DNA from: Bryoerythrophyllum caledonicum
Lineage: Eukaryota; Streptophyta; Bryopsida; Pottiales; Pottiaceae
DNA: 64,000 nucleotides
Reading direction: 5' to 3'
NCBI GenBank assembly: GCA_963971425.1
Contig: OZ020523.1
Coordinates: 21,557,105-21,621,104 of the forward strand
Part shown: in pieces, positions 2,134 to 53,339 of the stretch
Layout: every line of letters starts with the position of its first letter
Position numbering within the stretch: the stretch's first letter is position 1
Position numbers and translations under genes: made by a program
The notes under the pieces: generated by a model
What the model saw: the letters and a program-made list of their open reading frames with translations, nothing else
Databases searched by the model: none
Told to the model about the DNA's origin: nothing

Positions 2134-2857
2134 CTAAACTTACAAAACGACCAAATCCCTGCCCCACCTCTCCTGGACCTACCTCATGATACATAGATAA
2201 AAGACATAGCCCTAATCGCAAAAAATGCCAACATTCAAGCTTGAAAAATTACCACAAAACATGCCAAAGACAACATCAAAAAAAGCCATCTCAAAATACA
2301 GACAACTATACGAAACTAGTCCTAAAAAAATAAACAGAAGAGTGTATAAAAATCTTGAATCTCCACCGCTAGATTGCATCACAGACCAACACAATAACAT
2401 CTTAACTAGCCCAGAAGACATTGCTAATGAAATATTCACTCAACAAACAAAAAATAATAGACCCACATTACCAACATGCAACTACCAACCACAACATTCA
2501 ACCGAATGTACATGTGCAGTACACCAATATCCATGGCACAACCTAGATGGATTTACACTAGACACAAGGGGCGAACTAGAAACCCCATTACATACATACT
2601 TCAACAGAGCCACATACGACACATGTCTTCGCAACCTAGGCACCAATAAAGCTCCAGGCCCTGACCGTATACCGAACTCAATTCTCAAAAATATGCCCCC
2701 TAGATTCCATAAACTACTATTCTTTTTTTTCTCCCAAAGTTATAAACAAAAACAAATACCATCCTCATGGAAAACAAGCGCAACAATTTTACTATACAAA
2801 AAAGGACACACAACAATTCTACCAAATCATAGACCAATCGCACTAGCTAACACAATA
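2134..2857 (+). pseudogene. LINE reverse transcriptase, N-terminal half
   Basis: After a frameshift at an A-run near 2270-2285, the frame of 2225 reads AISKYRQLYETSPKKINRRV and then the RT entry motif LGTNKAPGPDRIPNSIL (about 2632-2690). SSWKTSATILLYKKG and NHRPIALANTI follow, which are fingers-domain blocks of LINE RTs. The reading stops abruptly at base 2857, where the DNA transposon begins, and resumes at 18154. Stops before the shift (2131 and others) show decay independent of the insertion. Confidence 0.88.
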
Positions 2858-2889
2858 AACACGCAATTAAGCAATTATGCACTTAGCCA
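2858..2889 (+). repeat. Left terminal inverted repeat of the 15.3-kb transposon
   Basis: This 32-bp end begins AACACGCAATTAAGC and pairs with 18118-18149; the single difference is an A/G near its inner end. It is preceded by the target copy AATA at 2854-2857. A subterminal CCAAGTGCA follows directly, a possible transposase-binding repeat. Confidence 0.92.
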
Positions 2890-3455
2890 AGTGCACTGCT
2901 TGCTGGTAGAAAGCCGCAAGTTATTTGCTCATAACTTTTTTTTAAATCAAAATTTGGCAAAAGTTTAGTATGTTTTTTGTCAAATTTTTTTGGTGTTTGT
3001 TGTGTCATACCTTGGCATCTTCATGTTCATATCAGTAATATAATTTTTACATTTGCTACCTTTTTTTAGAAAATATATGATTTCTAATCTAGTTTACAAA
3101 TCCTGCTACAAAATTATAATCATGTGCCCAAAGAGATTATAAATTTGTTATGAGTTATTATAGGATTTTAGAGTAGTGCACTACAAATACAATGTATAAG
3201 AGATGCAAAAATATATATGCAATTTCCTAAGACAGTGTAAAGTACCTCACTGTATTTTATAATGCAAAAACATACATAATCAAGCAATTCCACACTATTG
3301 CCGAGGAATTCTAAAATCAAACATATCATATAGACCACCCAATATATAAAAATATACCACCCACCGAATGATAGACACATCTCAAACTACATATTACTAA
3401 CGTACTTGTCACCTAAACTGCGTGCATGCTCTACAATAGAATATAGCTCCACGAC

Positions 3456-5077
3456 TCACAACTCATCTTCTGGCGGAACGACTCCCTCCACGTGTCCAAT
3501 GGCGCTACCTACCATAGCGGACAGTTCATGATCCTGCACTGGACGATCTCCCACACCTTCGATGCCAATGGACGCACACTCAACATATCGGTAATTGCCA
3601 GGAACACCCTCCCGCGTATGCCTTACCCTATCATCATTGTAGAAAAAGCCATCCTCTGGATTGAAGGACATCTCTCGCTCTAACGAGAAGGCCCCCTGAA
3701 ATGCAATGATGTCCTTGGATACGCTAAATCTTGGAACGGAAGGCAAACCTAGTCCGGTATCACTCTGAGTACCTCCGAACGTCTCTTGTGTCTCCGATAC
3801 AGGCTCTGATTGAAAAGCCATCGAAGGCTATCGAATCCTCCTCTGCACCGAAAAAAATTCCAATGAATCCAATTCTTCTTCCTCCATCTCCAGCCTAGGA
3901 CCATCAAATATACGCCCCCCTCCTGTCCCTGCCGCCAAACCAACATCCACTACACCGGTATCTTGCATCCTCTCTGTAGGTGTTGCAGATGTCTGCCCTG
4001 AAGTATCTCCCACCGCCCGCTGCGTTGATGGAATCCTCTCTCTTGGAGGAGACTGGTTCACTCCATCTTCATCGGCGTCTGAACCACTGCGAGATGAGAA
4101 ATCTTCAGTGGTACCTGAACGTGGCAATCTCTCATTTAAACCACCTCCATCCTCATTGTCATCTTCATTCCTCACTCCACCAACCGCCTCTTCGGTCTCA
4201 GGTACGATGTTGCAACCAGTACTTGTTCCACCAGTCCTGACCAACAGTTGTCCTTGGAAATTGTCGGACAACTCGTTGTACAAAAATGAAACTCTGTCTG
4301 TACAATCGTCAACGATGAAAACCTCAGATCCCTGAAAATCTCCTTCAAGGATCGTGGGAATGGCCGTAGATATGTTACACGCCACTAAACCCCAACCACG
4401 GGGCAAGTATGAGCCCACTAGTCTTGCCAGCTCTGATGGAGATCTCTCAAGTGAATCAACTTCAGAGGGTTGGCGTGCCTCACTCCAGTGATCCAAGAAA
4501 ACAAGTGGAAGTGGAACGTCTCCAGAAACATAGTTCGGGCCAGGAGATGTACCCAGAGGGTGTTGCATACAAATCACAACATCGCCAATCGGTTGTACTA
4601 TTTGCTCCAGACGCCCATTCTCTGTAAAATTGAGAGCATAGGGATTAACCGAGTTGGGATCAAATGCCCAGCATCCACGTCGCATAGTACATCCCTCTGG
4701 AAGCTTCACCTTCGTGAAAAAATCTTCGTTGGCATACACGGCCGCTGGTAACAAGAAGATGACGTTCCATCGTTCAATATTTGCCATCCATAATGCCAGC
4801 TGTGCAAAAACTGCGGATAACTGGGCGTCTCCCCAATGACCATCTCCATGCCTCCCACCGCCACGTCGACAATCAATCACCTACAAACATGGTTTCCCCA
4901 ACTCTATGTAGTCGGTGCGGAATAACCCTCTTCTACACCGAACCGGAAGAAGATTCTCTGTGTCGCTCTGGCCTGGCCTCTTCACTTCCATCTGCCATTC
5001 CCAATTACCAGTAGCATGTCCTCCCACATCCACGGACAGTCCAATGTATCCACGCCCCCCTGCTGCAATGTCACCAT
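3456..5077 (-). pseudogene. Transposon cargo ORF downstream of the ParB-like gene; methyltransferase-like fold suspected
   Basis: One minus-strand frame is open from about 5077 to 3456 except for TAG codons at 4883-4881 and 3830-3828. It lies immediately after, and in a different frame from, the 780-residue ParB-like ORF, so it may be its 3' part joined by introns or a frameshift. It begins DYGDIAAGGRGYIGLSVDVGG. After the first stop it reads VIDCRRGGG...WGDAQLSAVFAQLALWMANIERWNVIFLLP, then ELARLVGSYLPRGWGLVAC and GSEVFIVDDCTDRVSFLYNEL. The spacing of these blocks recalls N4/N6 DNA methyltransferases, but no DPPY or FxGxG motif is visible, so that reading is weak. The last 120 codons (from 3821) are acidic and unrecognised. 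A GTGAAG...TTGTAG intron removing the first stop is possible. Confidence 0.4.
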
Positions 5078-5079
5078 AA

Positions 5080-7422
5080 TCAAAACCTGATGGAAGGAGG
5101 GATGAGGTAGCCTATGTCTTCCAGTTTAGACACCTTTCCCCGCATCGGAGCCGTCCAAGCTTTTTTCGTGGCAGCATTCAAAAGCTTCCCAAACGTATCA
5201 AGTTGTGCGTTATTCCTCGGAAAATACTTCCCTACACGGATACGAAAGAAATCCTCCATGGAATCAGGTGTACTTTCCTTGTTCTCTACCATCAACCAAC
5301 GGATGGAATTCATCACAGCTTCTCGTCTCTGATATCGGTCAACCACACCGGCAATAGTACGAGGATGTGGATTCTTGTCTTTTACACCGTCGAAGTAATA
5401 TGCTTGACGTGGTCTTACTCCATCCTCCCCCACCGGCTTCGCTGCAGCTGACTTAGCCAACCGAAGATAATATGGATTCGGAACCCTACCTAACGGCCTC
5501 AACCAATTCTGCGTCATCTCCTTTCTTGTTGGTCGTACGTCCACATTTGGATCCAACTCTTTCTTCCTCGCCATGTCCTTCCACTTGTCCTCTTCCTCCT
5601 TGCTGTAAAAGAGAATGCCGTCTTCGTAGTCCTTGCATACTTGAATGATAGCTTCGAAGCAGTCATTGCTCGGATTCCATGCATGATTGGTCAGATCCTC
5701 CATGTTTTTGGCCAACCTCTTCACCGTGACAACTCCATCCCCCTTGGGCAACTTATGTACTGCACTTGCCGCACTCACCAAAGCAACAGCCCTGCGTGCA
5801 TCGTCCGCACGTAGTGTGCTATCAGGCCTCCCATATAGATCCCAAATCTGACGGATCTTCCTCAAATCCTCCTCCATGGTAGAATATGACTGTCTCTGGA
5901 ATTCTGCCACGTTGATCCGCGCAGACTTCTCAATGTAGAAGCGACGATCATCATACACCACAAAAGAGGCCTCCCGCCGCTCGAACGTGTCCAGGTACTC
6001 ATTTAAAGGCATAGTACCATCTCTCCACTGCTGCTGTGCAAACTTACAAGCTGCTACTATGTGTTGGCCATCCACCGGTTCCCAAATGATATGATCTTGA
6101 AGCCAAGAATACTGGGATCCCATCGCACCCTGTGCAGAAGCACTCCCGTGTGCAATGAACATGCGCTCAAACTCTCGTGCGGTTCCTACCAACGGAAATG
6201 GCAGCTCCTCTTTCTCAATGACACCATCATCGGTGGTAGTACGTACGATGTATCTGATCGGTCGAAGTACCAATCTACTCACCCGACTCGCAGATTCTGG
6301 GTCTCTTAAGCGGTTAAATACTTCTCTGACCCTCTTCTGTGATAAAACCCGGTGGTTCGTTTCCGGGTTCTCCACACAGACAATGCGGTCTATGTGTGCC
6401 TTAAACACAAAATTCCCCCACACTGATCCTTTCGCAATCTCCTCCGTTGTAGGCACTGGTGCTTTTAAATTCATAGGAGTTGGAACATCTTGTGGTATCT
6501 CCGCATTGTCTTCAAAATCCTCTGGTAAACTATCTGGAAGGTTGTGAAAATCTTCTTCCTCCGGCGCCACGGCTGACAAATCAGCTACATCTCCCGGTGT
6601 AGATGTAGGGGCCCTACGATGACCATCAGACGTCCTGGGCCCCGACCTAGGAATCCTGCCACCCGATCTTGCACTTCTGCCAATCAACCTCCTCCCGCTT
6701 GGATCCAAACTTGATGGGCTTTCTTTTGAACCAGAAGCTACATCGCTGTCAGCACGCCGTGGCCTCTTCGTAGGACGTCTACTCGTTAATGGAGGATTCG
6801 GTAATGTCTGTACCTCAGAAGTTGTGCTGGGATGTTGGCCTCCACTTCCCCTCCCTCCCTCCAGTGGTCGCCAATCCAGTTGCAACGGCTCAGCAAGAAC
6901 TCGATAAACTTCTGTTTCTTCTGGTTCTGCTGGTGGGGCTTGAGTTGTCGCACGTGATGGGTCCCTCTCCCGAAATGCTTCATATCTAATATGTTCCTCC
7001 ATAATCTTCTTAGCCTTCAGCACCATCTCCGGTGATAACGCTAAACAGGATAAGACGTTGTTGTGTCTAGCAGTACGTACCGCAAGAGAGATGTTTAACC
7101 AAAACATCTGCAATGATTTGAGGAATTTCACCTGACCTGGATTTTGAAGAAGATTCAATGGTACAGGTGCCAAAAGTAACTTCTTCGAAAGAGAAGTCTT
7201 CACTTCCGATTGACCTGGACCCACTGCGCAAGTAACGTATACCATATCATCACATCGAAGAGTGATTGCTTGGATTTTGCCAAAACTCTTCCCCAATGCC
7301 GATGTACGCTTTCCCAGCTCAAAGGGATAATCCGTCACCCATAAGAAGGCGCTCGACTCATCCACTTCTGCAATCCACCAGCCGTGGCTCTCCCAGATTC
7401 TATCAATATTTGGTGGTGCCAT
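5080..7422 (-). CDS. Transposon cargo protein with ParB/sulfiredoxin-like motif, 780 residues
   Basis: A long intact minus-strand ORF. I chose the ATG at 7422 (MAPPNIDRIWESHGWW) over 7503 because the intervening 27 codons look non-coding and a TATACAG acceptor-like site precedes it. Residues about 1-150 form a globular head of unknown type. About 170-310 are low complexity (P, S, R, G) with a basic RRPTKRPRRAD stretch that could be a nuclear signal. Residues about 330-600 include WEPVDGQHIVAACKFAQQQW, followed by a region ending DLRKIRQIWDLYGRP. The DGQH core followed by a helical region recalls ParB/sulfiredoxin-like nucleotide-dependent DNA-binding domains. The C-terminus is charged. It diverges from the transposase across the repeat-rich core and lies inside the inverted ends, so it is cargo. 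Coding status is firm; function is tentative. Confidence 0.7.
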   Translation of the reverse strand: MAPPNIDRIWESHGWWIAEVDESSAFLWVTDYPFELGKRTSALGKSFGKIQAITLRCDDMVYVTCAVGPGQSEVKTSLSKKLLLAPVPLNLLQNPGQVKFLKSLQMFWLNISLAVRTARHNNVLSCLALSPEMVLKAKKIMEEHIRYEAFRERDPSRATTQAPPAEPEETEVYRVLAEPLQLDWRPLEGGRGSGGQHPSTTSEVQTLPNPPLTSRRPTKRPRRADSDVASGSKESPSSLDPSGRRLIGRSARSGGRIPRSGPRTSDGHRRAPTSTPGDVADLSAVAPEEEDFHNLPDSLPEDFEDNAEIPQDVPTPMNLKAPVPTTEEIAKGSVWGNFVFKAHIDRIVCVENPETNHRVLSQKRVREVFNRLRDPESASRVSRLVLRPIRYIVRTTTDDGVIEKEELPFPLVGTAREFERMFIAHGSASAQGAMGSQYSWLQDHIIWEPVDGQHIVAACKFAQQQWRDGTMPLNEYLDTFERREASFVVYDDRRFYIEKSARINVAEFQRQSYSTMEEDLRKIRQIWDLYGRPDSTLRADDARRAVALVSAASAVHKLPKGDGVVTVKRLAKNMEDLTNHAWNPSNDCFEAIIQVCKDYEDGILFYSKEEEDKWKDMARKKELDPNVDVRPTRKEMTQNWLRPLGRVPNPYYLRLAKSAAAKPVGEDGVRPRQAYYFDGVKDKNPHPRTIAGVVDRYQRREAVMNSIRWLMVENKESTPDSMEDFFRIRVGKYFPRNNAQLDTFGKLLNAATKKAWTAPMRGKVSKLEDIGYLIPPSIRF

Positions 7423-7482
7423 AACGCAACACTCAAAAAACCTGTATATCGTTACAAAACAATAGTCACTATTAGTATGGAA

Positions 7483-8560
7483 TAAGAATTTTTGAACCAC
7501 CACTCATTGCACAATATTTTTGAACATGCAACACCCCTTGTCTACCTCTAAAAACTTTTGCACTACACAAGATCTAAATCCAATACCATCGTGTTAACCA
7601 TGTTGTTAGTTCTTTGGTGAAATAGCATATTCATCCAAGTCAATTATTTTCACACATTGTCACACATTTTCGGGGAGAATACCAGAAAACTTCTACCTTT
7701 CCACATAAAACTACGAGAACTTCGTACGATTCACTTTTGATTATGCCTACAGCATTATGTGATGTAAAACTTCTTATTTACCATTTGGATTCTCATTTAA
7801 AACAATATCGAGTTCACAAAAAAACATAACGTTAATTGTGAATTTTTGAACCTCCACTCATTGCACATTTAAAAAAAATATGCTACACCCCTTGTCTACC
7901 CCTAAAAATTGTTGCACAACATGAGATCTAAATCCAGTACCATCGTGTTAACCATGTTGTTAGTTCTTTGGTGAAAAAGCATAGTAATCCAAGTCAATTA
8001 TTTTCACACATTGTCACACATTTTCGAGGAGAGTACGAAAAAACTTCTACCTTTCCACATAAAACTTTAAGATCTTTGTATGATTCACTTTTGATTTTTT
8101 CTACGGCATTATGTGATGTAAACCTTCGTATTGACCATTTGGATTCTCATTTCAAATGATATCAAGTTCACAAAAAAACATAACGTGAATGGTGAATTTT
8201 TGAACCCCCACTCATTGCACAATTTTTTTGAATATGCTACACCCCTTTTCTAACTCTAAAAATCGGTATGTAGCAAACTAACATCATGCTTAACATTATG
8301 GTAATTAATTGAGACCTTTTATAGTGCAAAAATGTGACACCAATTGAAATCAAAGACTGCTGATCCAGAAAACGCAGGGAAGAAAATGAGCATTTTCACT
8401 ACTTCAAACATTATAATCTTTCAATCCGTGCGGTGAAACTTTATGAAATTTTTTGAGCATATTACTTAATAAGTCATCATTCAGATCCTACGGTTAAAAC
8501 TAAAAAAAACATTAATTGTAGAGGCTTTCTAATTGCACAAAAACAAGCAATTTTAACGAT
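7483..8560. repeat. Three tandem diverged copies of the transposon-core repeat
   Basis: A block containing GAACCTCCACTCATTGCACA and TATGCTACACCCCTTGTCTA, preceded by a CACACATTGTCACACATTTTC segment, occurs near 7490, 7850 and 8200 with about 350-bp spacing. Related copies lie at 10440-11490 and 11795-12720, and one lies outside the transposon at about 23330-23860. No coding sequence is seen. The copies differ by many substitutions, so the array is old. Confidence 0.8.
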
Positions 8561-8589
8561 ATTTGGGTTAGATATTCTCTACATTATTT

Positions 8590-8745
8590 ATGGACCAAGG
8601 TACTACGGGTATCAATATCCAGGGTATCACGACCAGGGTATGAGCTCCTTGGTATCACAACCGGTTATCAACCGGTGTACCAAATTAGGGTTTAAGTTAG
8701 GGTTTGGATTTCCGGGTATCAATAAGGATATCAATCCTTTGCTCA
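8590..8745. repeat. GGTATCA-rich short repeat patch
   Basis: The stretch repeats GGTATCA/GGGTATCA units (for example around 8607, 8622, 8650) and contains CAACCGGTTATCAACCGGTG. It separates the core repeats from the G-rich tract. No gene is seen. Confidence 0.5.
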
Positions 8746-8807
8746 AGTGGGTAGTCCTAGGAGGGGTGTGCGAGCGCACACCCCCGGTAGAAGTTGTGAT
8801 GAGGCTG

Positions 8808-9026
8808 TGAGTGAGAGGGTAGGGTTAGGAGGAGAGAGACAATGTGTGGGAGGTGTGAGGAGATGTGTGGGAGATGTGTGGGAGAGATGGTGTGCGGGGA
8901 AGGTGTGAGGGAGGGGAGGGAAGTTGAAGGAGGTGTGAGGGAAGTTGTGGGAGGTGTGAGGGGGTTGTGGGCGGCTAGGGTTTAGGAGAAAGAAGGAGAG
9001 AGTGGGTGAGGGAAATTTTGTGTCGG
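8808..9026. repeat. G-rich low-complexity tract
   Basis: Imperfect GTGTGGGAGGTGTGAGGGA-type repeats give a purine- and G-rich plus strand right up to the assembly gap. Runs of GGG at short spacing make quadruplex formation plausible. Open frames across this tract and the gap are artefacts. Confidence 0.65.
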
Positions 9027-9226
9027 NNNNNNNNNNNNNNNNNNNNNNNNNNNNNNNNNNNNNNNNNNNNNNNNNNNNNNNNNNNNNNNNNNNNNNNNNN
9101 NNNNNNNNNNNNNNNNNNNNNNNNNNNNNNNNNNNNNNNNNNNNNNNNNNNNNNNNNNNNNNNNNNNNNNNNNNNNNNNNNNNNNNNNNNNNNNNNNNNN
9201 NNNNNNNNNNNNNNNNNNNNNNNNNN
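9027..9226. other. Assembly gap (200 N)
   Basis: Exactly 200 unknown bases follow the G-rich tract, the usual size of a placeholder gap, so the true length here is unknown. The transposon length of 15,292 bp therefore includes an arbitrary 200. Confidence 0.98.
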
Positions 9227-9419
9227 CAATGAAATTGGTGGAAGGTGTCGCACCTGCAAAGTTGCGCAACGAGGAGGTTGGCCACACTTGATCGGGGGAG
9301 GAAGCTCTTGTTTTGATTTTCGCCTCGATGTGTTTGGGTTTGCTTGGTGGAGGAGCACCAGCAGTAGGGGGTGTGCGCGCGCACAGCTCTAGCTCAAGGT
9401 TACTTGGGAGGCGTCACGC

Positions 9420-9652
9420 GACTTCCACGTCACGCGAATATGTTGACTAGGGTTTGGATTCGTGGTTGTGGCGGCTAGGGTTTGATGGTGGCGGCTAGGA
9501 TTTGGCGGCGGTGGCTAGGGTTTTGTTGCTAGGGTTTGGGTTCTTGTGTGTAGAGGCTAGGGTTTGGGTTCTTCTGTGTAGAGGCTAGGGTTTGGGTTCT
9601 TGTGTGTAGAGGCTAGGGTTTGGGTTCTTGTGTGTAGAGGCTAGGGTTTCAA
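9420..9652 (+). repeat. TAGGGTTT-rich region with a 28-bp minisatellite
   Basis: CTAGGGTTTGG motifs are scattered from 9450. From about 9530 a 28-bp unit (GCTAGGGTTTGGGTTCTTGT plus GTGTAGAG) is repeated four times almost perfectly. Each unit contains only one plant-telomere-like GGGTTT, so this is a minisatellite, not a telomere array. Confidence 0.8.
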
Positions 9653-10430
9653 GTAGTGCGCTGATGTGCCATATTGAGGATTTTCTGCAATACTACGAGC
9701 TCTCTTTATACTCACTTTATGAGGTTTTGGTGTCATTTTTTCAGTGTAACAATGCCTGCACTCTCTAGTTGTTGACTGCTATCATGTTTTCTTCTTGAAA
9801 TTGCAATTTTGAATATACTCTAGTTGGTGTTTCTATTTGTGTATTCAAATATTGGTACTCAGCTAACACTAACGTAATTCTGTCTGAACTTCAATCATCA
9901 TGAAAAGTGTCCTGGAGTTCCTCGTATTCAGAATTGAAACAAAGTTAGAAGCTTACCAAGTTTGCAAAAATCTCCTCGATGTGCAAATTTCCTCCAATCT
10001 ACACAGTTTACAAATTTGACAGAAATTAGTGAATGAAGTAAAAATGCACATAGCCTTGAGGTCTTGATTGCAAGAGTGCCCACCTTAGAAACTGCGAAGA
10101 GAAATGACCTCTAGGTTTGCATAGAAACCTGTTATCCATGTTGGAACCTTGTGCCTCAAGTTTACTAGTAAAAATTTGACTTTAAGAACTTTGGACCTCC
10201 ATATGTTAATTTTTTCAATATATTATATTAAAATATCAAGCTATAAAAATACGAAGATACATATAGGATTTTTTATCACATAGTTTACCATATAAACTTT
10301 ATGCATGTGTTGCAGGTAAAGTGGGAAGGGTTGAGAAACATGTCCAACAACAACGACGGAATGGTGATATAATGTTGAACGCCATCAAGCATCAGTGCGT
10401 GTACCGCTAACACCTGCAACGTATCTTGAG
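9653..10430. other. Transposon core, no gene seen
   Basis: About 780 bases of AT-rich sequence between the minisatellite and the next repeat copy. I see no convincing open frame, RNA gene or repeat. It could hold a 5' leader or intron of the transposase transcript. Confidence 0.4.
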
Positions 10431-10439
10431 GTAAACATT

Positions 10440-11490
10440 TATTTTTATACAAGTTTAACCCCTAAGGTACCAAGTGTCCAAAAAGGGCTTTTTGAAAGTT
10501 CGGTCAGGTTCCTATGGTGTCAATTTCCAACATTCTTATTTGAAATTTTTACTATAAAAAGGCATTACCAAGACCTTAGTGGGAAAACAATTTTTACCTA
10601 AATTGGACATTTGATGAAAAAGTCATAGGGTTTTGAATTTTAAATGGGGAGGGCGGGCACCTCAGGCACCTCCAAAAACTTTTGATAGGACACTCTATTG
10701 AAAGTGAGATTTACAGTACTTACAAGTAATATTATTCCCCTTCATATTGTCAAAAAAGAGTTCTTGTCTTTTGTGATACCAACCCAAGTCAAACATTTTC
10801 ACACATTGTCACTCATTGTCGGGCAAGGTACCAAAAAAACTTCTTGTTTTCCAAATAAGACCTAGATATCTTCATATTTTTCACTTCTTATTTTCTCCAC
10901 ATCAATATGTAATGTAAACCTTCATAAAGAAGAATAACTCCGGCCCCTGAAGGGGGCGGCGTGAGTAAAGTGTCTGTTCGTTCCACTTACTAAGACCATG
11001 TCCACTGGACAAGGAAAAGTTGTGAACCTTCATATTAACCATTCGGATTATCAATCAAAAACATATTAAGTTAAAAAAAAATTAAACTCTGAATTAACGA
11101 ATTTTGAGCCTCCACTCCTTGCACACTTGTTTTGAATATGCTACACCTGGTCTCTACCTATAAAAATTGGTGTTTAAGGAGCTAACATCATGTTTAACAA
11201 GATGGTAATAGATTTAGACCTTTTGTACTGAAAACTTTTGACACCAACTGAAGTCAAGGTTTGTTGATCCACTAAACGCAGGGAAGAAAATGAACCATTT
11301 GCTTGACTTCAAACACTATAATCTTTTAATCCGTAGGGTCAAAGTTTATGAAATTTTGTACATGTATTACTAAATAAGCCTTTATTGAGATCCTACGGTC
11401 AGAACTAAAAATAAAAGTTTTTTTTTCCTTCTTTATTCGTTGCACTAGAATCCATTTTGTTTGAAGTGTTTTTGGTGTAAAACTGTCACG
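10440..11490 (+). repeat. Long core repeat, copy A, interrupted by a SINE-like insertion
   Basis: From AACCCCTAAGGTACCAAGTG through TTCGGTCAGG, CACCTCCAAAAACTTTTG and CACACATTGTC to TTTGTTCGTTGCACT-like sequence, this block matches 11795-12720 in order. It carries an extra ~98 bp at 10927-11024 that is absent from the other copies, the SINE-like element. No coding sequence is seen. Confidence 0.8.
10927..11024 (-). mobile_element. ~98-bp LINE-tail SINE, copy 2
   Basis: Read on the minus strand it begins TTTCCTTGTCCAGTGGACAT and ends in ATTCTTCTT, matching the LINE 3' end at 22847-22943 and the plus-strand copy at 55820-55916. AACCTTCATA stands on both sides (10917-10926 and 11025-11034), extended by a one-mismatch GTAAACC/GTGAACC. 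Sister repeats without the insertion (for example near 8115) show the uninterrupted site GTAAACCTTCGTATTGACC. Its two hairpins keep their pairing although the stem bases differ from the other copies. Confidence 0.85.
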
Positions 11491-11794
11491 ATACCTTAGG
11501 CGTTAAGATTGATTCTTGATTGATCTTTTGTACGATGTTGTTTGTAGAATAACCTTTATGTGGATTTACAAACCCATTATTTAATTAGCAATTGTAACAA
11601 GTTCCAATGGTGTCAATAATAGCAAGTAGACAACATGGTTCATTTTCTTCCCTTGGTTCAGTGAATTCCCTTTGTTTCAGTTCACTTGGATTCAATAGAT
11701 TGCATCACACATGATCTAGGTTCATTATCATCATGTGAAGAATGATTAGTTCCATTATTCACCAATGTTTAGGAATGCAAAAGAAGTGTAGCAT
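11491..11794. other. Spacer between core repeats A and B
   Basis: About 300 AT-rich bases. It contains phrases related to the repeat family (for example TTCATTTTCTTCCCTTGG near 11640) but no coding sequence or RNA gene that I can support. Confidence 0.4.
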
Positions 11795-12720
11795 ATTTAA
11801 CCCCTAATGGATCAAGTGTCAAAAATTGGCTTGTTGAATGTTCGGTCTGGTTTCTATGGTGTCAATTTCCAACATTCCTCTTTGAAAATCTTACTATAGA
11901 AAGGCTTTACCAAAACCTTAGTGGGAATAACAATTTTTACCTAGATTGGACATTTGATCAAAAAGTTATAGGGTTTTAAATTTATAATGGGGAGAGCGGG
12001 CAAGTTGGGCACCTCCAAAAACTTTTGCTAGGACACTCTGTTGATTGTGAGATTTTTGGTACTCAAAAGTAATATTACTTCCCTTGTTGGTGTCCAAATA
12101 AGTTCTTGTCTTTAATGAAAAATAGCATACCAACACAAATCAAACATTTTCAGACATTGTCAGTCAGTGATGGACAAGGTACCAAAAAAACTTCTTGTTT
12201 TCAAATAAAACTTAGATATCTTTTTATTTTTCACTTTATTGTTCCACAACAATATGTGGTGTAAACCTTCTTATAGACAATTTGGATTACCAATCTAAAA
12301 TATATTAAGTTCACAAAAAATTATAGTGTGAATTGACAAATTCGGAACTTCCACTCTTTGCACATTTGTTTTGAATATGCTACACCTTTTTTCTCCCTCT
12401 AAAAATTGGTATACAAGGAACTAACATCATGCTTAACAAGATGGTTAAGGATTTAGACCTTCTGTAAAAAAAAAATTGACACGAAGTGAAGTCAAACTCT
12501 GCTGATCCACTACACGTGGGGAAATAAATGAACCATAAGCTTCACTTCAAACACTATAATCTTTCAATCCGTCCGGTCAAAGTTTATGAATGTTTTTTTA
12601 ATTATTACTTAATAAGTCATAATTGAGAACCTACGGTCAAAACTAGAAATAAAAGTTTTTGTTTCATTCTTTGTTCGTTGCACTGGAATCCAACAATTTA
12701 GAAGTGTTTTTGGTGTAACA
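11795..12720 (+). repeat. Long core repeat, copy B
   Basis: Uninterrupted relative of copy A (10440-11490), from TTTAACCCCTAATGGATCAA to TTTTTGGTGTAACACTATC. It ends about 60 bases before the transposase start, so its 3' part probably overlaps the transposase leader or promoter. Its last phrase also recurs near 11460 and 23820. Confidence 0.78.
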
Positions 12721-12780
12721 CTATCATTGTATTTTGACTAATTTGCAGCCATAATGTTCCTATTTTTTTTAACAGTGATA

Positions 12781-15700
12781 ATGGAGAGCCGCACGATTCA
12801 GACTCCTTTGATACGGCCACACATCGAAAGGGACAATATGCCTTGTAATAGCTCTGTGGGGGCCCGATTAGTACGAGCAGCACGTGCAAGGCAAATTCAA
12901 CAGAGATCTGTTGGGATCATGACTTCTGAATTGGAAAGGACAATAGAATTGCTTTCAGAAACAAGAGATGTGGTGGGCTTAGCAACGAGGGAGCATGCAT
13001 TCAAAAGTGGCATGGAATTGAATGGGTCGAAGTTGTTCCCATTCGAGGTGGCGGTGCGTATCACTAGGGTAGATGATGCATTGCATTGGACCGGAGAGAT
13101 TGTAGGAGAACGCCTTGGCATGTGTGTGGGCTTGATCATTCGTTGGCATCGATCTTTGCTACGTGTAGTGGCTGTAGAACCTGATATCACAGGTGTCCAT
13201 GGTGACATTGGATCACAGATAGCGCCTGCAGTAGTGATGGCCTCAGAATTTGATTTTCCTGAGTTCATCAACAAACCAGGATCCACCCAGAGGTCTCGAC
13301 GCAGTAGTCATGCTTCAAACGCCATAGATGAAAATTCGTCGTTTTCCCAATCTACTCCCTCAAATATCCAAGATTTGCCCCATGTAGATGGATTTGCTTA
13401 TGTTAGACCAGCACGTCGTCCATATTCTATGCAAAATAGGAGAAGGAGAGATACAAGGGAGCCATCATTGACAGAAGCTATACCATCGAAGGTATCGCTT
13501 AGAAGCGTGCAAATTGCAATGGCACAAGGAGGATGCAAACGTAATTGTTTGAGGGACATTCCAGCAAGGTATCTATTGGACATGCGATATAATGCATGGG
13601 GTAGTGAGTTTTCAGTTCGAAGTACGTGGATGAGACAGATGCTGGTTTCTTTTTATACTAGGACGAAAGGAACTCGTCGAGACAAGTTTGTAACAAAGTT
13701 AGATGGGAAAGAAGTTTGCAATGCTTGCTACGCTCTTGGGGTTGGATATTCAAAGAGGCGCTTTAAGCAATTGAAGAAGGACTGTCTAATATATGGAAGA
13801 GTGACATCGATTCACGGCAATACCCTTTCAGATCCGATAAGAGAGAGTACTAGAATGTCTGCAGCAGAGGCTTGCTTTAAATCGTTTGTCGATGAAGCTG
13901 GTTGTCCTCAACCTCATCGTTGTATTCGCCGTAAGAGTGACAACGAAGTGGTGCCTCTCATTCTCCTTCCTATGAATACAGCCAAATTTGATGTATTCAA
14001 TTACGTGAACGAGGAGGTCAAGAGAATTTGTAATGGAGAAACCATTTCTATGAGTTCGTTCCGGAGGATGTGGCGCATCAAGTATCCCCACGTTCAGGTA
14101 CCTCCGTTCTCGAGATTCTCAAAGTGTTATCATTGTTGGGAGTATAAATGTGCCATGGAGGGAACAACCAATGCGGATGCAAGGATAAAGATAAAGGAGT
14201 TGTTTATGTTGCATCTGCGCAACCAGATGGAAGAACGTTGTCGTGGAGAGAGAATTTGCCTTGGGAAAACGCAGGGTTCTTGGCTGCTACCAATTTCAGT
14301 AAAGGAAGAAGGGAGGTATAATAAAGGCCTTCTTCATTGGTGATAAATTTGAAATAATACAAAGTAAGACTTAGATCTTCAATAAAGGTAAACTTTTTGA
14401 CTCATCTTGACAAACCCTCGCAAGTGATTAAACAAGTAGTTTGAATGAACTTGGGGCAGCAGAATCTTCTCTCATTCTATCAAGCTCTACCACTTCATAC
14501 TTAACTTTATATGAGCATGCAATAGCTTCCTAGAAAGCTAATACAGTAAGGCTCATACATGCCAAATTTAAATATAAAAAAATCTATACAAATACTTCTA
14601 TGAGGAATCAAAGTCACTGCTCTAATTTGCTCAAGGCAGCTGACTCCTTTCCACTCAATCTAGCATAACTCTCTCAAATCAACTCCAATCCACTTACGTA
14701 ATAGCTTTTTGAAAAGCTAACAACAAGATCAACAAGTGATAAAATTCTCAATCCTATTGACTCTATATACAATGAACTATAGTTGCTCAAAGTCACTGCT
14801 TGAAACTTGTGGAAAACAACCCGCTCCTCCGAGAACACTCCTTCAATAGATCAAGTGCCACGACTCCATAACAACTCGGATTTGAGCTTATGATAGCTCA
14901 TTGGAAAGCTAATACAATCAACACTATACACACAAAGATTCATTATCTCACTCTTTGTATGCAAGTTTCTACATAGAATCAAAGTTACTGCTCTCGAAAG
15001 TTCATGGCAGCAGTACCCTCGTTTATTCAAATCCACACCACAGCTTCTACATAACTCCGATTGGAGTGTGTGATAGCTTGTTGGAAAGCTATTAAAAAGT
15101 TCTACAACACTCTAAAAACTGACATCAAAACTCACAAAACTCTCCCTCCCACACTGGAAAACCCGAGCGTCTTTTTATACTAAATGGAGGAGGCTTAGGC
15201 CGAGGGAGGAGGGAAGAAAAGTCAAGGGCCTAAATCAGCCCATGCTTCTCTAGCCTTCCTTTTGACTCACCCTTGGACACCAAAGTCTATTTACCTCCAA
15301 ATCTTATCCAAATCTTCCCACATAAGCCTAGCTTGACTTTTATTTCCTAACCTATAACTCTACTACAAGTTGGCACTATATTTCTCCCCCTAAACTAACC
15401 CCCAAACTAAACATTTCTTATTTCTATTACAAACTATAATACCATAACAATCTGTTTAAGTTTTTTGATCTCAGAAGAGTTAGAGAATAGCTTAAATATC
15501 ACTAGAGCCCACGTACTGCCATCGACCGCGGCTTAGTTCGGCTGGCTAAGCTTTTCGTTGCACCTCGCCGGTCCAGGTTCGATTCCTTGGCTTGTCAGAG
15601 CGGCTGGCGCTCGCGCGGTCAGGGGACTGCCGGAATCAGCAGCAAATCCAGCTGGTGGACGCTCCTAAGCCCTGAGCTAGTGACAAGATGTAGTAAAGAT

Positions 15701-17577
15701 CCTCTAAGATAAGCTTCTGGCCTGGTAGGGTAATTGAGGAAAAAACCATTTATTCTCCACAATTACCTTAACCAGTAAGATTCCCCATTTTTCTTCTCAA
15801 TCTTATTTTTTATATCATGAACTGTATTGCATCACGACAACGTAGGCATTATTGGATATTCAAGAGGTCGTGTTATATTAGCCCTGAGTTGTACATGTGC
15901 ATCATAGTGGATGGCATGGACCAAAACACGACCATGGTACCGAGGATGCGTCAGACTGTGAAGAACATTGAACATCGGTTTGTGAAGACCCATCTGTGTG
16001 GTGCTCTTGTACATGGGATCGGTTTATATTGCGACGTGTGGTTTGGGGCTCACCACAAACACGATAGCAATCAAGTGGTGAGTACATTGTTGTACGTGAT
16101 TGGAGATGTGCTGCGGAAGAGGGATTTTTTGCCACCAACACTGCGAATTCAGGCCGACAACTGCACGCGTGAGAACAAAAACATTTATATGTTTGCTCTA
16201 TGTGCTACATTGGTGGGATTGGGGTTTTTTCAGGAGGTGGAACTATCTTTTCTTATAGTGGGCCATACCCACGAAGATATTGATCAACGCTTCAGTTGTA
16301 TATCAAATACGTTGAAGAGGTCGGACGTCGACTCGTTGAAGGAAATGATTAGTCTTATAGAACGAGGAACCTCACCTACGGAGGCATTTGTTAGCGCCCG
16401 GCTGTTAGAAAATGTATGGGATTGGAAATTGTTCACAACTCCTCACTTATTGACAGGTCAGGATTCATTGGTGGGCATAACTTTTCCGCACCACATGCGA
16501 TTCTATATGGACAATCGAGCAGGGACTCGTGAGGTTCGAGTTCAACACAAGCATTATTGCAAGGATCCATGGGGACCGGAGGCAGGGACAAAAACTTTGA
16601 GGTCGTTGCCAAATAGAGATGAACGACCATCGTTTGCGGAAGTATTTGCAGCGGACGAACGGGAGTTGAAGGCGTTGGATGACTTCATTGCATATAAACA
16701 AAGGTGCATTCAAAGGTTGCAGCATGAGGACAAGAATCGTGAGGCAAAAGTAGAGGCTGAAAGATTGAAACTCTATTTAGCTGAATTTCCACACAAAGAT
16801 CGTAGCAATGAGCATCGTACCTCACCGTTTTGGCCTTCAGAGTTCTCCAACACCGGACCTACAGGGAGCGCATCTTTGGATGTAATGGATGGTGCAAGTG
16901 AAGAAAATCGCGAGGTAGATGTCGTAGAGCAGGTAGTGGCCATGCTTCCAAATGCTGAGGCTCGAGGATACTTTGGTCCTCGTAGAGGAAGACCCTCTAA
17001 TCAAGCAGTGCGTAGGGCACAACAAACAGAGCGCAACTATGTTGAGGAACGCGCCGAAGAAGGAGCAATGTATGAAGGTAATCACGACCCATTTCCACCA
17101 TTTAATCCACAATCTGATATCCGTTGTGGACAGTTTGTAGCCTTGAGTGTTGATCGAGCAGAGATAGAAGGCGGTGTTCCATTCTATGTGGGGAAAGTGA
17201 TTGAGGAAGGAAAAAACCGATGGAGACTTAAGATTAAGGTTTGTTGGTATTGGCCTATCATCCAAAGGGGGGTTGCTGATGGACATGGGTCTTCTGCACA
17301 ACGGTATGCAAATTGCATGGATTCATTCTGGGAGCCATCTGGGGAGAGCCATAGTTGGGTAGACAAAGATGCATGCATTTTTTCATGGGTAGACACATTG
17401 GAAAGAACCATGTCCGGGGCCAGCGGGTGGAGAAAGCGCAATGTATTTGGAGTGCAGGTTGAAAGCAGGATTCGCATTCTTCAATCGGCAAAGGCTCACA
17501 TCCTACAATATATTGCAATGCAAACCGAAGCTATCGATGACGACCGTTTGCAAGCAGCCCTAAATTCTATGGAGTAG
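12781..17577 (+). CDS. Two-exon DDE/RNase H-fold transposase (DUF7869-like), 1088 residues
   Basis: Exons 12781-14315 and 15846-17577 join in phase (AG|GTATAA donor, TAG|GCATT acceptor, phase 2) to give one 1088-codon frame with no stop. ATG 12781 (MESRTIQTPLI) follows a TTTTTTTTAACAG acceptor-like site. Residues about 250-480 are a Cys/His-bearing DNA-binding region (CKRNCL, VCNACYALGVGYSKRRF, FSKCYHCWEYKC). The catalytic core follows: IIVDGMDQ (Asp534, Asp537), IQADNCTRENKN (Asp616) and VGHTHEDIDQRFS (Asp656, Asp658), the three acidic blocks of the DUF7869 group. The junction gives EEGRHYWIFKRS just before the first Asp, as that group does. The C-terminus (SDIRCGQFVALSVD...PFYVGKVIEE) looks BAH- or chromo-like. 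It lies inside the inverted ends and should act on them. It appears intact, unlike the host LINE. The family name is from memory. Confidence 0.82.
14316..15845 (+). other. 1530-bp phase-2 intron of the transposase gene
   Basis: Bounded by GTATAATAAAGG and a pyrimidine-rich TTTTCTTCTCAATCTTATTTT stretch ending ...ACAACGTAG. It contains about four diverged units of 130-150 bp (14440-15110), each with a GATAGCTTNTTGGAAAGCTA-like core and a nearby GGCAGCAG. After AT-rich spacer comes a tRNA-derived SINE at 15515-15790. Without this splice both halves end in unrelated tails, so the intron is well supported. The tandem units resemble sequences common in plant LTRs, which would make part of the intron inserted DNA. 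Confidence 0.72.
15515..15790 (+). mobile_element. tRNA-derived SINE in the transposase intron
   Basis: The head contains an A-box-like GGCTTAGTTCGGCTGG and, about 45 bases on, a perfect B box GGTTCGATTCC in a CCAGG-TTCGATT-CCTTGG arm. The spacing suits an RNA polymerase III promoter. A GC-rich unrelated body (GAGCGGCTGGCGCTCGCGCG) and an AT-rich end follow. No proper anticodon arm or acceptor stem forms, so it is not a tRNA gene. Ends and target duplication could not be fixed. Confidence 0.65.
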
Positions 17578-18117
17578 ATAGTGTGCCTTTTTTAGGGTGT
17601 ACTAGTTGTGTATGGTAATTGATATATAGTGTATGTGTAAGAGTAGTATATTCTAAGGGTGATCTAAGACGTTATGTCATTAATCCTTTAGAATAAAATT
17701 GTGTTTAATATTGGTGCTAAGTCCAATTGTTGAAGCATCTATATTTAGTTTTCACCATTGTATGCATTATGTAGTATGTAGAATATCTTTTAATCAATTG
17801 CCAACCCTTGCATAAAGTATGGTTTTTTGGATTACTCCTGTTTATATACTACAATCCTTCAAATCTATCTTTGAAATATTGTGAAACTATATTAAATACA
17901 CATTTATCTAGTATTAACGAGGGGCCACAACAAATTAGTTGAAAATGCCAAATAATCGCTTCCAATATGAACAACCACGATTGTACGTAATATTGTTGCA
18001 AAAGCTCAATTTATTTTTCTTTGGAAAACATTTTTTTTGTTTGATTTTTTTTTTTTTTTTTCAATTTTGCCACTTTTGTTCGCAATGGCCGCCGTTGTAC
18101 CCAAGTGCACTTTTAAA
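17578..18117. other. Transposase 3' flank and right subterminal region
   Basis: AT-rich sequence without a gene. AATAAAATTGTGT near 17692 could serve as a polyadenylation signal for the transposase. A long T-run at 18045-18061 and the CCAAGTGCA repeat at 18101 precede the right inverted end. Confidence 0.45.
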
Positions 18118-18149
18118 TGGCCAAGTGCATAATTGCTTAATTGCGTGTT
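18118..18149 (-). repeat. Right terminal inverted repeat of the 15.3-kb transposon
   Basis: Reverse complement begins AACACGCAATTAAGC and matches the left end at 31 of 32 bases. AATA at 18150-18153 follows, then LINE sequence TATAAACTC resumes. Confidence 0.92.
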
Positions 18150-19520
18150 AATATATAAACTCTTCACTAGTACATTTACCTCTATACTATCCTCATATAG
18201 GGAAAAGTTCAAAATCCTACATGACAGTCAAGAAGGATTTAGAGCAGAAAGAAGTACCTCTAGGCAAATACAAACCATAATAGCCGCATTAGAAGAGGCA
18301 AGATTCACAAATCAAGATATATATAATTTATATATTGACTTCAAAAATGCCTTCGGCTCTATAGATCACACTTGACTATTAGCAATAATGAACGACCTTG
18401 GGTACCCCAAAGACGCAACCACACTAGTTGGAAACATTTACTCCCAATCATCCACTCACTATATTGGTGAACACTTTGGAAAGACTAAACCTATTCCCAT
18501 TCAACGAGGAACAATACAAGGAGATACCCTTAGCCCATACCTATTCCCATTCAACGAGGAACAATACAAGGAGATACCCTTAGCCCATACCTATTCATTA
18601 TATTTTTAAAACCTCTACTTAAATGGCTAGAACAGGGCAACAACGGATACACCTTTGGTACATCAAAAATCACCATACCCTCTGCCGCATACGCAGATGA
18701 TCTTGCCACCATAACTAATAAAATCAAATCAATTCAAATACAACTTAATAAAATTGATAGGTATTGCAAATGGACCGGTATGGATGTAAGCGTCCCAAAA
18801 TGCGCTCCTACCGGATGCCCAAACAAGTCCAAACTAAATCCAACCACTTTCAAAGCCCTAATGCAAACTTCCAATATTAAGTATCATAACCAATCCATCC
18901 CTATACTACACCAAAATGAACCATACGCATACCTAGGTACAAACCTAGTCCCCTCACTAAAATGGAAAATACAAATCCATACTACAACCACCAAACTCAT
19001 CAGACAATGCAAAGAACTAACAACATGTCCAGCCACTATGAAACAAAAAATAAAAATGGTGGATATCGTACTACGCCCAGGAATAGCATATAGCTTCTAT
19101 GTTGTACCATACTCTATGCCGGCTATAATTAAACTGGATTGTAAAATAATAGCCATACAAAAAAGTATATGCGGAATGCCAAAATGTATGTCAAATGCAA
19201 TAACCCAATTTCCACGAAATCTATTTGGACTTGAAGCTTTCTCCCTCAAAAATGCATACCTCCGATGTATAGGTGAACAATTACAAAATGCTCTAAATGA
19301 TAAAGGTAGGTTTGGAAAAATATACGAAGGATTAACCCATTACATTCTTGCTCAACATGGTGGAGCCGAAAACATACCCAGAATTAAAACAAACGATTGT
19401 ATAAGATCACCAATTACCCGAACACTTTTTCTACTAAAACATATAGCTAAAGTCCACCTTAAAAGTACGCTTCCAAACTTCCTTGTTGATCCCACACCGC
19501 TAGAAGTATCATGGCGCTAA
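18150..19520 (+). pseudogene. LINE reverse transcriptase, C-terminal half
   Basis: Starts IYKLFTSTFTSILSSYREKF directly after the transposon. It continues with DSQEGFRAERSTSRQI, NLYIDFKNAFGSIDHT (first catalytic Asp block) and IQRGTIQGDTLSPYLF. YADD lies at 18690-18701, followed by a thumb-like region (NEPYAYLGTNLVPSLKWK). A TGA at 18373 and a perfect 50-bp tandem duplication (18491-18540, 18541-18590) break it. The duplication moves the frame by exactly the 50 bases needed to link 18388-18590 with the frame of YADD. A TAA at 19518 ends this stretch, but the same frame continues to 22661. Confidence 0.88.
18491..18590 (+). repeat. Perfect 50-bp tandem duplication in RT
   Basis: Units 18491-18540 and 18541-18590 are identical (start CTATTCCCATTCAACGAGGA). 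Fifty is not a multiple of three, so the event frameshifts RT within its GTIQGDTLSPYLF motif. Perfect identity suggests it is recent relative to the point mutations nearby. Confidence 0.95.
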
Positions 19521-22500
19521 GAAACACAAAACCATAACACATTAAATGCTCAACTCTCCCAAAAGCTCCTACAAAAACTCCTCTCAAAAAACATCTTTGA
19601 ATTAAGCCAAATTACTCTACCCAATGGCACGCACATGATGAACAACGAAGACTTCAAAACCTACCACTTTACACCATCCAAACTAATAAAAAGCGCCCTA
19701 AATATTGCCAAACAACTTTTTTGTTGTCCTACAACATGTAACACCCCCAACAACTTGAACTCATATTCCTCTGAACTCCAAGATTCCTTCATAACCACCA
19801 ACAATAACATCACCCCACAAAACATCCCTCCGCCAATCCACCCCCTTAGTCCATCACACCCATATCACCCACGCCCTCCAACATACATCTCTAAAAATCC
19901 TACAGCATATCCTATCAATAGCATAATACACCATAAACATAGACAACACACAGATACAAATAACATACAAAATGCATATACAAAATATTTATGCCAATGG
20001 CAACACAACAACATTACTTTCAACAAATGGCTTCACCAAAGAGACCATTTCCCACGACACGACCACAATGCCTCCATACACAACACCGAAAAACTAAAAC
20101 AATATTATCAACAAATCCAACATAAACACTACTTAAAAACCATTCAAAACCATCACCCACAAGAACAAGCCCAAGACTCACGGACCGTAACTCCACCAAT
20201 AGTAATCCCACTCCTAAATATCTATACAACAGAATGTAATCCCAAAAAAGATATTCTTACACTCTCACACGCAATTAAAATAGATAATAATCAAGCACAC
20301 CTCTATGAAGAAAATGGCCGACACTTATACACTATTCCCACCACTAGACTACAATGGCTATGGAATCAATACAATACAAAACTACAAACTCCTACAATCA
20401 TTGAACCAACAACCCAATCCTTTGAAACGGAATTAATTTGGCTACACCAAAGATATAAATACCGAATCCCAAAAAATGATCCCCTTAAAAGTGCACAATA
20501 CACAATACCTATACCCATCTTAGACTCACTAATCTCATCATTCAACATAGAACAATCATACTTCTCTTCCCCCGTCACATGTTCCACCAAATTAAAAAAA
20601 TTCTATTTGTCCTTTGAAAGAGATAAATTATTTGGCTCCTTGGAAAAGGCCTTTGACTACAAATGGACCGGCCACGGTATAGCTCACCCCCACAATGAGG
20701 AAGAAACACAACAAGCAATACATTGGGCCCGTCTTGCCACAAAATACGATCTCCAATACACAAATATACTCATCATCACACCAAATAACAAATGGTACCA
20801 AAACAACAACCAACACTCAAATCCATATCTAGACTCTCATATTATTGCAGTATTTGAAGCAGATTCAATAACATACGAAGAGCCTACTATCCCACCTGAG
20901 CTAAAAAAACCCCGGATCGAACCATCTACACTACAAATTATATGTGTCCACCATCAAAATCAAACCCTTGGCACTCTAGAACAACTTACCGAACTCACCT
21001 ACATAGCAAATACCCTAAACATACATAGAGTATACACAAAAATGGCTCCACCAACACCTACACAAACCCCCGAAAACCGAAATAAAAAATGGTCAAAACT
21101 ACGCTACATCAACAATACATTAGACTACCTTGGAACACCACCCCCCCTCCCGAACTACCAAACTCATACTTCACCAAAATTTGACCCTGCATATAATTAT
21201 TATACCAATGGCTCCTTTAAACCTCCAGAACAAATTAGCCCGGGGAACTGGCGTAGAGAAAAAGCGGGCTATGGCATATATAATCATACTAAAGAAATTA
21301 AACTGGCCGAAAGACTACATGGACTACAAAATATCCTCAGAGCAGAGCTTATGGCCATCCACAAAACACTACAAATCGTCACAACGAAATACAACAATGA
21401 ACCCGCACACATATTCACCGATTGTATAAACGCACTATTCCTACTAAACGCCCAAATAACACACCCTACTCTCCACAATAGCCACCCCGGCCAAACCATA
21501 TTAAAATCAATGGTCCAAATGTTACAAAACCGCACACAAATCACAACCCTTCACAAAGTGAGAGCCCACACCAATATTGATGGAAATGAACAAGTAAACA
21601 AATTAGCAAAAGAGGGCTGGGAGAAATCACATAAAAATGCCAAAGATACACATGAACATGCCCACGCTACCCCATACTACTTTCAAAAAGAAGATTGGCC
21701 TTCTAAAGAAGAAACCCCAGATAAAGGCCCGGTTAGATTTTTGGACAAATATCTCAAAAAACAAGACCTTTACAATAACCTTGACATAATCTTAGAAAAT
21801 ATTCCCAACATAGAGAAATGGACTGACAACAAAAACATAGACAATGAACTCTCCACAAATTTTTGGAAAAACCCCACCATCTCGGACTCACAAATAACTT
21901 GCCTAATCAAATTCTGTACTGGTCAATATATGGGAAATGCACGAAAACAACTCTTCTTTGGGATAGAAAGATTTCCTTCCATTACATGCCCCATATGCAC
22001 TTCCACGGACCGAGATACATGGCTCCATGTTTTACTCAAATGCCAAAATCATCACATACACTCCTTAATTGTTAAAAGACATAACAAAGCGGTATGGGAA
22101 ATCCGAAAATTAATTACCTCATACAATAAATCGAGATGTTTTATCCTAATGAATGCCGGCACCTACAACAACAACCAACAAGAAAATACGGTCCCCCCTT
22201 GGCTACTCCCATGCACATGTGCGACTCAACGATGTTATTGTAATGCTAGACTCAAACCAGACATACTCTGTGTAAGAGGCCTACCATACAATGATCAATC
22301 ACCCGACCAAATAAACCAAAACTACACTATTCAATTCATTGAATTCACATACTATAACGATAGATTTTTCCCTGAAACAATTCAAAATAAAATAGATAAA
22401 TATCAATCCCTTATCGATGACATCATAACCCTCGGTTGGAAAGTAGGCCCCCTCATTGTAATTACAGTCGGCGCTCGCGCCACCACCTTCATTCCTTCTA

Positions 22501-22661
22501 TGAAAACCCTTGAAGATACCTTTAAAATTCCCATCAATACAATTACAAATACTTTTAAAAACATCAACACCATTGCCATTCAATATGCCATGTCCATCTT
22601 GCTACACAAAAGAAAAATCAAAAACAACCAACCCCTCCCCGATACACAAGACCCACCATAG
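19521..22661 (+). pseudogene. LINE C-terminal region: RNase H, CCHC finger, KPD...E nuclease-like module
   Basis: The long open stretch from 19635 ends at 22661. Its first ~500 residues are Asn/His/Pro-rich and unrecognised. RNase H lies at about 21190-21640: YYTNGS (normally TDGS), ILRAELMAIHKTL, HIFTDCINALFLL and VRAHTNIDGNEQVNKLAKEG (normally NEEAD). Two catalytic aspartates are thus Asn. A C-x2-C-x9-H-x4-C finger at 21986-22043 (CPICTSTDRDTWLHVLLKC) and CTCATQRCYC precede RLKPDILCV (KPD at 22254-22262) and FIEFTYYND (Glu at 22341). This order, CCHC then KPD...E, is that of the R2-type restriction-like endonuclease, although the KPD-to-E gap (26 residues) is longer than usual. Having both APE and this module resembles Dualen. 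Confidence 0.78.
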
Positions 22662-23213: not shown

Positions 23214-23341
23214 AAGACTATTTTAACCCCTAAACTTCCAAGACTATTTTAACCCCTAAACTTCCAAGACTATATTAACCCCTAAACTTCCAAGACTATT
23301 TTAACCTCTAAACTTCCAAGACTATTTTAACCCCTAAATTT
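23214..23341 (+). repeat. 26-bp minisatellite, about five copies
   Basis: The unit AAGACTATTTTAACCCCTAA plus ACTTCC is repeated head to tail with one or two substitutions. The phrase TTTAACCCCTAA also opens the long core repeats at 10440 and 11800, so the array probably grew from one such repeat. There are no spacers. Confidence 0.85.
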
Positions 23342-23870
23342 TTCACTTTTTATTTTTACCGTAGTATTATGTGATGTGAAACTTTGCATTCACTATTCAG
23401 ATTCTCATTCTAAAACATATTATGTTCACAAAAAAATATAACATGAATTGACATTATTTTGAACCTCCACTACTTGCACAATTTTTTTGAATATGCAATA
23501 CCCCACCTCTACCTCTAAAAGTTGGTGTACAAGGAACTAGTATCATCCTTAACATGATGGAAATGAATTTAGACCTTGTGTGGTGCAAATATTTGACACC
23601 AAGTGAAGTCAAAGTCTGATGATCCACTACACCCAAGGAAGAAAATGAACCTTTTTCCTACTTCAAACACTATAATCTTACAATCCATGCGGTCAAAGTT
23701 TATGAAATTTTGTGAGTATGTTATTTAGTAAGTCTTTATTGAGATCCTATGGTTAAAGGTAGAAATAAAAATTTTACGTTTTTTCTTTACTCATTGCACT
23801 AAACTAGCAGTTTTGAAGTGTTTTTGGTGCAAAATTGTCTAAGAGATTTAGGGGTTAAATATGTTTTTTC
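23330..23870 (+). repeat. Copy of the transposon-core repeat outside the transposon
   Basis: Sequence from the TTTTTATTTTTACCG-like start through GAACCTCCACTACTTGCACA, GGTGTACAAGGAACTAG, AAACACTATAATCTTACAATCC and GTGTTTTTGGTGC matches the 7490-8550 and 11085-12720 repeats in order. It sits about 5 kb beyond the transposon end. The repeat is therefore a family in its own right that invaded both places. Confidence 0.8.
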
Positions 23871-37119: not shown

Positions 37120-37705
37120 TGTAAAGAAAAATTGATAACCACAACAAATCAAAAGTCCTAACCAACATCGAATAAACAAAAAACATATACTAAAATAAGT
37201 ATATATAGTACACCGTCAAAGAATAACTACTAAATTTAGAAGAGCAGTCAAGCGTCTTCCACTTCACAAAGGGAGAATCAACGAGTGCAAGTAGTATAAG
37301 AGAATGCGGAACCTACAAGAGTACTAATGACAAACAATCACTTACAAGCGGAGGTAATCATTAAACACTCTCTAACGCACTCACAAAGTTTGACTTCTCA
37401 AAGACGTCAAGTCAAGGACGTATGCGGCACTATACGCACACACACACAATCATACGTGGATGAAAATCATCCTCAAATGAATGCAATGCGCCACAGTACG
37501 TCCCTACACCCGTAGATTAGTAACAAACTAATCTACGCTAAAATACTAGGATGCGGAGAGGCCCTCGACTATACATCTCGTGACAGCTGTCGTGAAAAGA
37601 AAGATCGATAACTACAACAGATCAAGAGTCCTAACCAACATCAAACAAACAAAAAACATACACTAAAGCAAGTATACATAGTACACCTTCAAGTGTCCCC
37701 CCTAG
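37120..37705 (-). repeat. Two direct copies of a gypsy LTR-like start
   Basis: 37131-37219 and 37606-37691 are about 85% alike by eye (shared AGTCCTAACCAACATC, ACAAAAAACATA, GTATA-AGTACACC). On the minus strand each begins CTTGAMGGTGTACTATRTAT. The 37700 copy follows a GGGGGGACACTTG tract that could be the polypurine tract of the gypsy element. A related sequence follows the second gypsy fragment at about 54110. They look like LTR 5' ends 475 bp apart. Confidence 0.5.
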
Positions 37706-37729
37706 CAATAAAGAGACCCTCTATCCAGC

Positions 37730-52985: not shown

Positions 52986-53339
52986 AACCTTCCGTTTCCG
53001 CCAGGCCTCCAGGTTTGTGCCCTGGTTTGAGCATGGACTGACACGTCACATTCCAACATGTCATTTACAGCAAAAGTTTATTACCTTGCAAAAATTACAA
53101 GGCCTACAAAATAGAAGTCGTCCGAACCGTCCACCGTCTCGTCTGATGACCCTGATCCACCCGTTATGACAACTCTATAGTGGACCACAAAGCACGAGGA
53201 AGCGTTGCGTTCAGTTGAGGGGTATTGGCGAAACCATGTGGGATTCAACCAGTGATATAGGCCTAGTGTCTCCAGTATTGAGCAGGGTTCTTCAAAAGAT
53301 CCATGCCAATGGCCATGCAAAACTTAAACATCGCTTAGC

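Follow-up and report, generated by a model that had tools for sequence, protein, structure and literature searches.

The window analyzed here (the whole stretch of 64,000 nucleotides of Bryoerythrophyllum caledonicum) contains a real cut-and-paste DNA transposon that lies inside an older retrotransposon, a LINE. We assign the element, with a probability of roughly 0.7, to Sola as a large, possibly autonomous member that is probably near Sola1, Sola being known here by description; it looks like a fresh example of this known group and not like a separate type. Sola is proposed because of the duplication length, the size, the core motifs and a published Sola1 element with a similar cargo layout. 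The original prediction had named no superfamily with confidence, a position that is revised here on the strength of these four features as compared by description. The features of the element and of its host are summarized in Table 1.

Table 1. Coordinates of the transposon, its parts and its host LINE in the window.
Feature	Position	Strand	Basis or remark
Host LINE, split by the transposon	1270-2857 and 18154-22661		Reverse transcriptase frame, domain matches
Left target-site duplication, AATA	2854..2857	.	Direct repeat
Left terminal inverted repeat	2858..2889	+	Inverted AAGTGCACT a short way inside
Putative cargo, second part	3459..4880	-	Open 3831-4880 (350 codons), TAG 3828-3830, 123 further codons
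Putative cargo, first part	5083..7422	-	ORF, 780 codons from ATG 7422; contains WEPVDGQHIVAACKFA
Diverged dispersed-repeat copies between the two genes, 354-bp tandem inside	7486..8519	+	Repeat comparison
Assembly gap, 200 N	9027..9226	.	Letters of the sequence
Two copies in tandem, offset by 1342 to 1238 bp, containing the same dispersed repeat as 7486-8519	10454..12726	+	Repeat comparison
Transposase exon 1	12781..14315	+	Start ATG 12781, alternatively 12754
Proposed intron, AG/GTATAA ... GTAG/G	14316..15845	+	GT-AG, phase fits
Transposase exon 2, DUF7869	15846..17577	+	Pfam; motifs IIVDGMDQ, LRIQADNC, GHTHEDID
Right terminal inverted repeat	18118..18149	-	Pairs with the left repeat
Right target-site duplication, AATA	18150..18153	.	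Direct repeat

The ends of the element are exact to the base. Comparison of the ends bore out the predicted terminal inverted repeats (TIRs), which are identical at 31 of 32 positions, as well as the predicted 4-bp duplication, AATA, on either side. Among 200,000 random inverted pairs of 32-mers from the window (those containing N skipped) the top score was 24 of 32, and with up to three mismatches allowed the window holds exactly two occurrences of the 27-bp end (expectation 0.00, from 100 shuffles). Inward of the 32-bp ends, past a 6-base gap, the pairing continues as AAGTGCACT. The termini are AACACG ends, i.e., AA...TT. When the flanks are joined without the element and without one AATA, a single open LINE reverse transcriptase frame runs through RPIALANTIYKLFTS / RPIALANTIYKLFTST, just as had been claimed for excision, and the flanks minus the element therefore represent the empty site. 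It is not the LINE frame that sets the length of the duplication; the value of 4 is given by the direct repeat together with the symmetric TIRs and refers to a single insertion; the base beyond the AATA repeat differs, being C at the left and T at the right end of the element.

The size of 15.3 kb given in the original prediction is a nominal length only, because it includes exactly 200 N inside the element. The same 200 N would fit an alternative in which the halves on the two sides of the gap are separate insertions that were fused by scaffolding; with AATA present at both ends and the LINE frame resuming at the very next codon, this is very improbable.

The transposase gene is formed by two plus-strand ORFs (12742-14343 and 15772-17577) that connect via the GT-AG junction 14316-15845. 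Joined in this way, the frame is free of stops over 1088 codons from ATG 12781 (1097 from ATG 12754), which confirms the predicted codon count for this junction. Between stops the two ORFs comprise 533 and 601 codons, and the longest ORF in 300 Markov shuffles of 12742-17577 had 247. The junction is a plausible splice proposed from the sequence, with several alternatives in the same phase, namely donors at 14340 and at six positions within 14106-14208 and fitting acceptors at 15779 and 15866. Exon 1 (12781-14315) yielded no match in Pfam, PHROGs or NCBIfam. Exon 2 matches Pfam DUF7869 with an E-value of 6.9e-50 (169.7 bits, cutoff 26); this family is annotated in Pfam as a domain of unknown function and is not named anywhere in the literature searched. 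The predicted DUF7869-like catalytic core was thereby strengthened as to the family, and its catalytic role comes from motifs read by eye: IIVDGMDQ, LRIQADNC and GHTHEDID follow one another in the order expected for a D-D-D/E core, and these acidic motifs suggest that exon 2 encodes a D-D-D/E transposase. DUF7869 is the putative core of the Sola transposase.

An extract of the review PMC10741241 describes Sola by a DDD transposase, 4-bp duplications and TIRs of 11-1124 bp, with sizes mostly of 2-9 kb and some above 15 kb, and records the group in a moss, among others; the extract of PMC6890710 lists Sola for C-fern. The element has AATA on both sides (one insertion), TIRs of 32 bp with 31 identical positions, DUF7869 with acidic motifs in a plausible order as seen by eye, and a nominal 15.3 kb. 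Sola1-1_Ec32 of Ectocarpus, as presented in the extract of PMC12477816, is 21.5 kb long and carries an opposite-strand gene for a 1104-aa protein with ParB and predicted methyltransferase parts. Likened to it by description, the element shares the character of a giant transposon with an accessory gene opposite the transposase strand and a ParB-like motif (by eye), but differs in its smaller nominal length and in that the methyltransferase half is unsupported. The curated bivalve Sola1 elements in the extract of PMC10294476 have a mean of only 5445 bp, which counts against the Sola1 reading.

Other superfamilies were compared by their published definitions. Zisupton (KDZ) has an 8-bp duplication (PMC12730594), in contrast to 4 bp here, and CACTA/EnSpm has CACTA or CACTG ends and a 3-bp duplication (extract of PMC10741241), whereas AACACG and 4 bp are found here. 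The 4-bp duplication of piggyBac is accompanied by 5'-CC..GG-3' ends (PMC10045372), unlike AA...TT. AcademX (PMC10045372) combines a 3-4-bp duplication, which fits the length here, with an encoded nuclease; no nuclease domain was found among the five ORFs scanned. Ginger, with a compatible duplication of 4-6 bp, has TG...CA ends and a Gypsy-like integrase, as opposed to AA...TT ends and no integrase match. The five scanned ORFs likewise contained no Pfam domain of another superfamily, which argues, together with the fit of duplication length, size and layout to the published Sola and Sola1 descriptions, against a DUF7869 transposon of some other or unnamed superfamily that makes 4-bp duplications and carries an unrelated cargo. 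Such an origin is rather unlikely in our view; it would agree with a Sola likeness that is by description and with cargo domains that are unconfirmed.

The collections searched for relatives comprised prokaryotes, viruses and plasmids. Patterns of the DUF7869 part matched two stretches in the collection viral_contigs and six in genome_contigs, none of which was confirmed, and the degenerate pattern GHTHxDIDQxF was absent from both. The DUF7869 part had no match to phages at E ≤1, the exact 27-bp end was absent from viral_contigs, and the solved structures gave no match below E 0.82. For the cargo there was no match in viral_contigs, matches to phages were at chance level only (E 1 or worse), and the cargo DNA had no match in plasmids.

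The long minus-strand ORFs may encode an accessory protein carried by the transposon, which could be a ParB-like DNA-binding protein. The first has 807 codons between stops (780 when counted from ATG 7422), and the second is followed in frame by TAG 3828-3830 and 123 further open codons; no clean splice or join linking the 780-codon and 350-codon ORFs was found. The ParB-like cargo of the original prediction was recovered as a motif by eye only (ParB/DGQHR-like, WEPVDGQHIVAACKFA in the first part); in Pfam, PHROGs, NCBIfam and PADLOC nothing reached the cutoff, and the best stray hits (E 0.11 to 0.31) were to families unrelated to it. All 121 of the 121 records in a phage ParB set gathered for comparison were from Mycobacterium phages, i.e., one narrow family. 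AlphaFold models of the cargo, computed without alignment, were useless (mean pLDDT 33.7 for the ParB half and 36.2 for the methyltransferase half). A candidate cargo methyltransferase (RSPSELARLVGSYLPRGWGLVACNISTAIPTIL, by eye) was unsupported; it had no Pfam match, and its hhalign score of 11.85 lay within the range of 20 shuffles (10.19-17.29) in a weak, low-powered test of nine window pieces (two pieces of transposase exon 2, out of frame and interrupted by stops, left out) against 11 N6/N4 methyltransferases, two of the 11 being Pfam-checked. Another piece of the cargo scored 19.75, above the candidate.

The copies of the intergenic dispersed repeat are mutually about 67-91% alike, and repeats such as CTAGGGTTT are present in the element. 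A reading of the intergenic repeats as element-specific binding sites was rejected because one more copy is present beyond the limits of the transposon, at 23338-23858. This copy has inverted ends by eye (TTAACCCCTAAAT / ATTTAGGGGTTAA) and is perhaps a small non-autonomous element. A possible SINE is located at 15520-15770, within the proposed transposase intron. Its tRNA-like B box lies at 15576 (GGTTCGATTCC), a search of the vicinity gave no strict A box, and ARAGORN detected no tRNA across the window.

The host LINE matches RVT_1, RNase H and the endonuclease-like Exo_endo_phos_2 (9.8e-6, just below cutoff). It carries four lesions in 6096 bases, namely a frameshift (2133-2216), TGA 18373-18375, a 50-bp tandem duplication (18489-18596) and TAA 19518-19520, compared with none in 3264 bases of the transposase. 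Under a model of equal decay, zero transposase lesions have P 0.12 (Poisson) and the placement of all four in the LINE has P 0.18, so that the contrast of a mutated LINE with an intact transposase, which the original prediction had stressed, is not significant; the count excludes the LINE upstream of 1270 and the cargo, whose TAG would reduce the contrast. TIRs are not copied at insertion, and their identity gives no clock. For these two reasons an age young enough for activity, as had been suggested, is not established. An old, immobile copy, in which the transposase, having taken few mutations, is still open and the cargo is already decaying, would be compatible with the Sola assignment and is a serious possibility that falls somewhat short of even odds: the in-frame TAG, the lack of a clean join between the two cargo ORFs, the divergence of the intergenic repeats and the non-significant lesion contrast all agree with it, against which stand the 1088 stop-free transposase codons.

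For the element as a Sola transposon, DUF7869 would be an RNase H-like D-D-D/E catalytic domain. At each end the TIR, together with the inverted GCACTT/AAGTGC pair a little further in, may be bound by the transposase, which would then cut both strands and link the ends to phosphates of the target that are spaced by 4 bp. By analogy with the Sola1 cargo of Ectocarpus, the product of the opposite-strand gene might be an accessory protein acting on the element's own DNA. The element is a candidate full-length copy with base-exact ends and points to a possible role for DUF7869. If ParB-like, its cargo would extend the suggestion, made in the extract of PMC12477816, that large transposons carry proteins binding and marking their own DNA. 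A bolder reading, which we hold to be unlikely, is that giant Sola1-type transposons with a ParB-like accessory gene form an old lineage reaching beyond the algae, the methyltransferase half having decayed or been replaced here to leave a protein that binds its own element and, with no methylation involved, marks or protects it.

The host LINE also yielded a match to PCIF1_WW (1.5e-7, 31.6 bits, cutoff 31.1), which is surprising for a LINE; no report of PCIF1 in LINEs was found in the literature searched. The C-terminal end of the LINE (KPDILCVRG...IEFTYYND) looks, by eye, similar to a restriction-like endonuclease. The window also contains a weak gene fragment with a NIF domain (E 0.23, 11.5 bits versus a cutoff of 21.8), a 0.9-kb inverted pair that is 77% identical (37633-38527 / 53277-54175) and a tandem array of 37 copies of a 16-bp unit (62503-63086).
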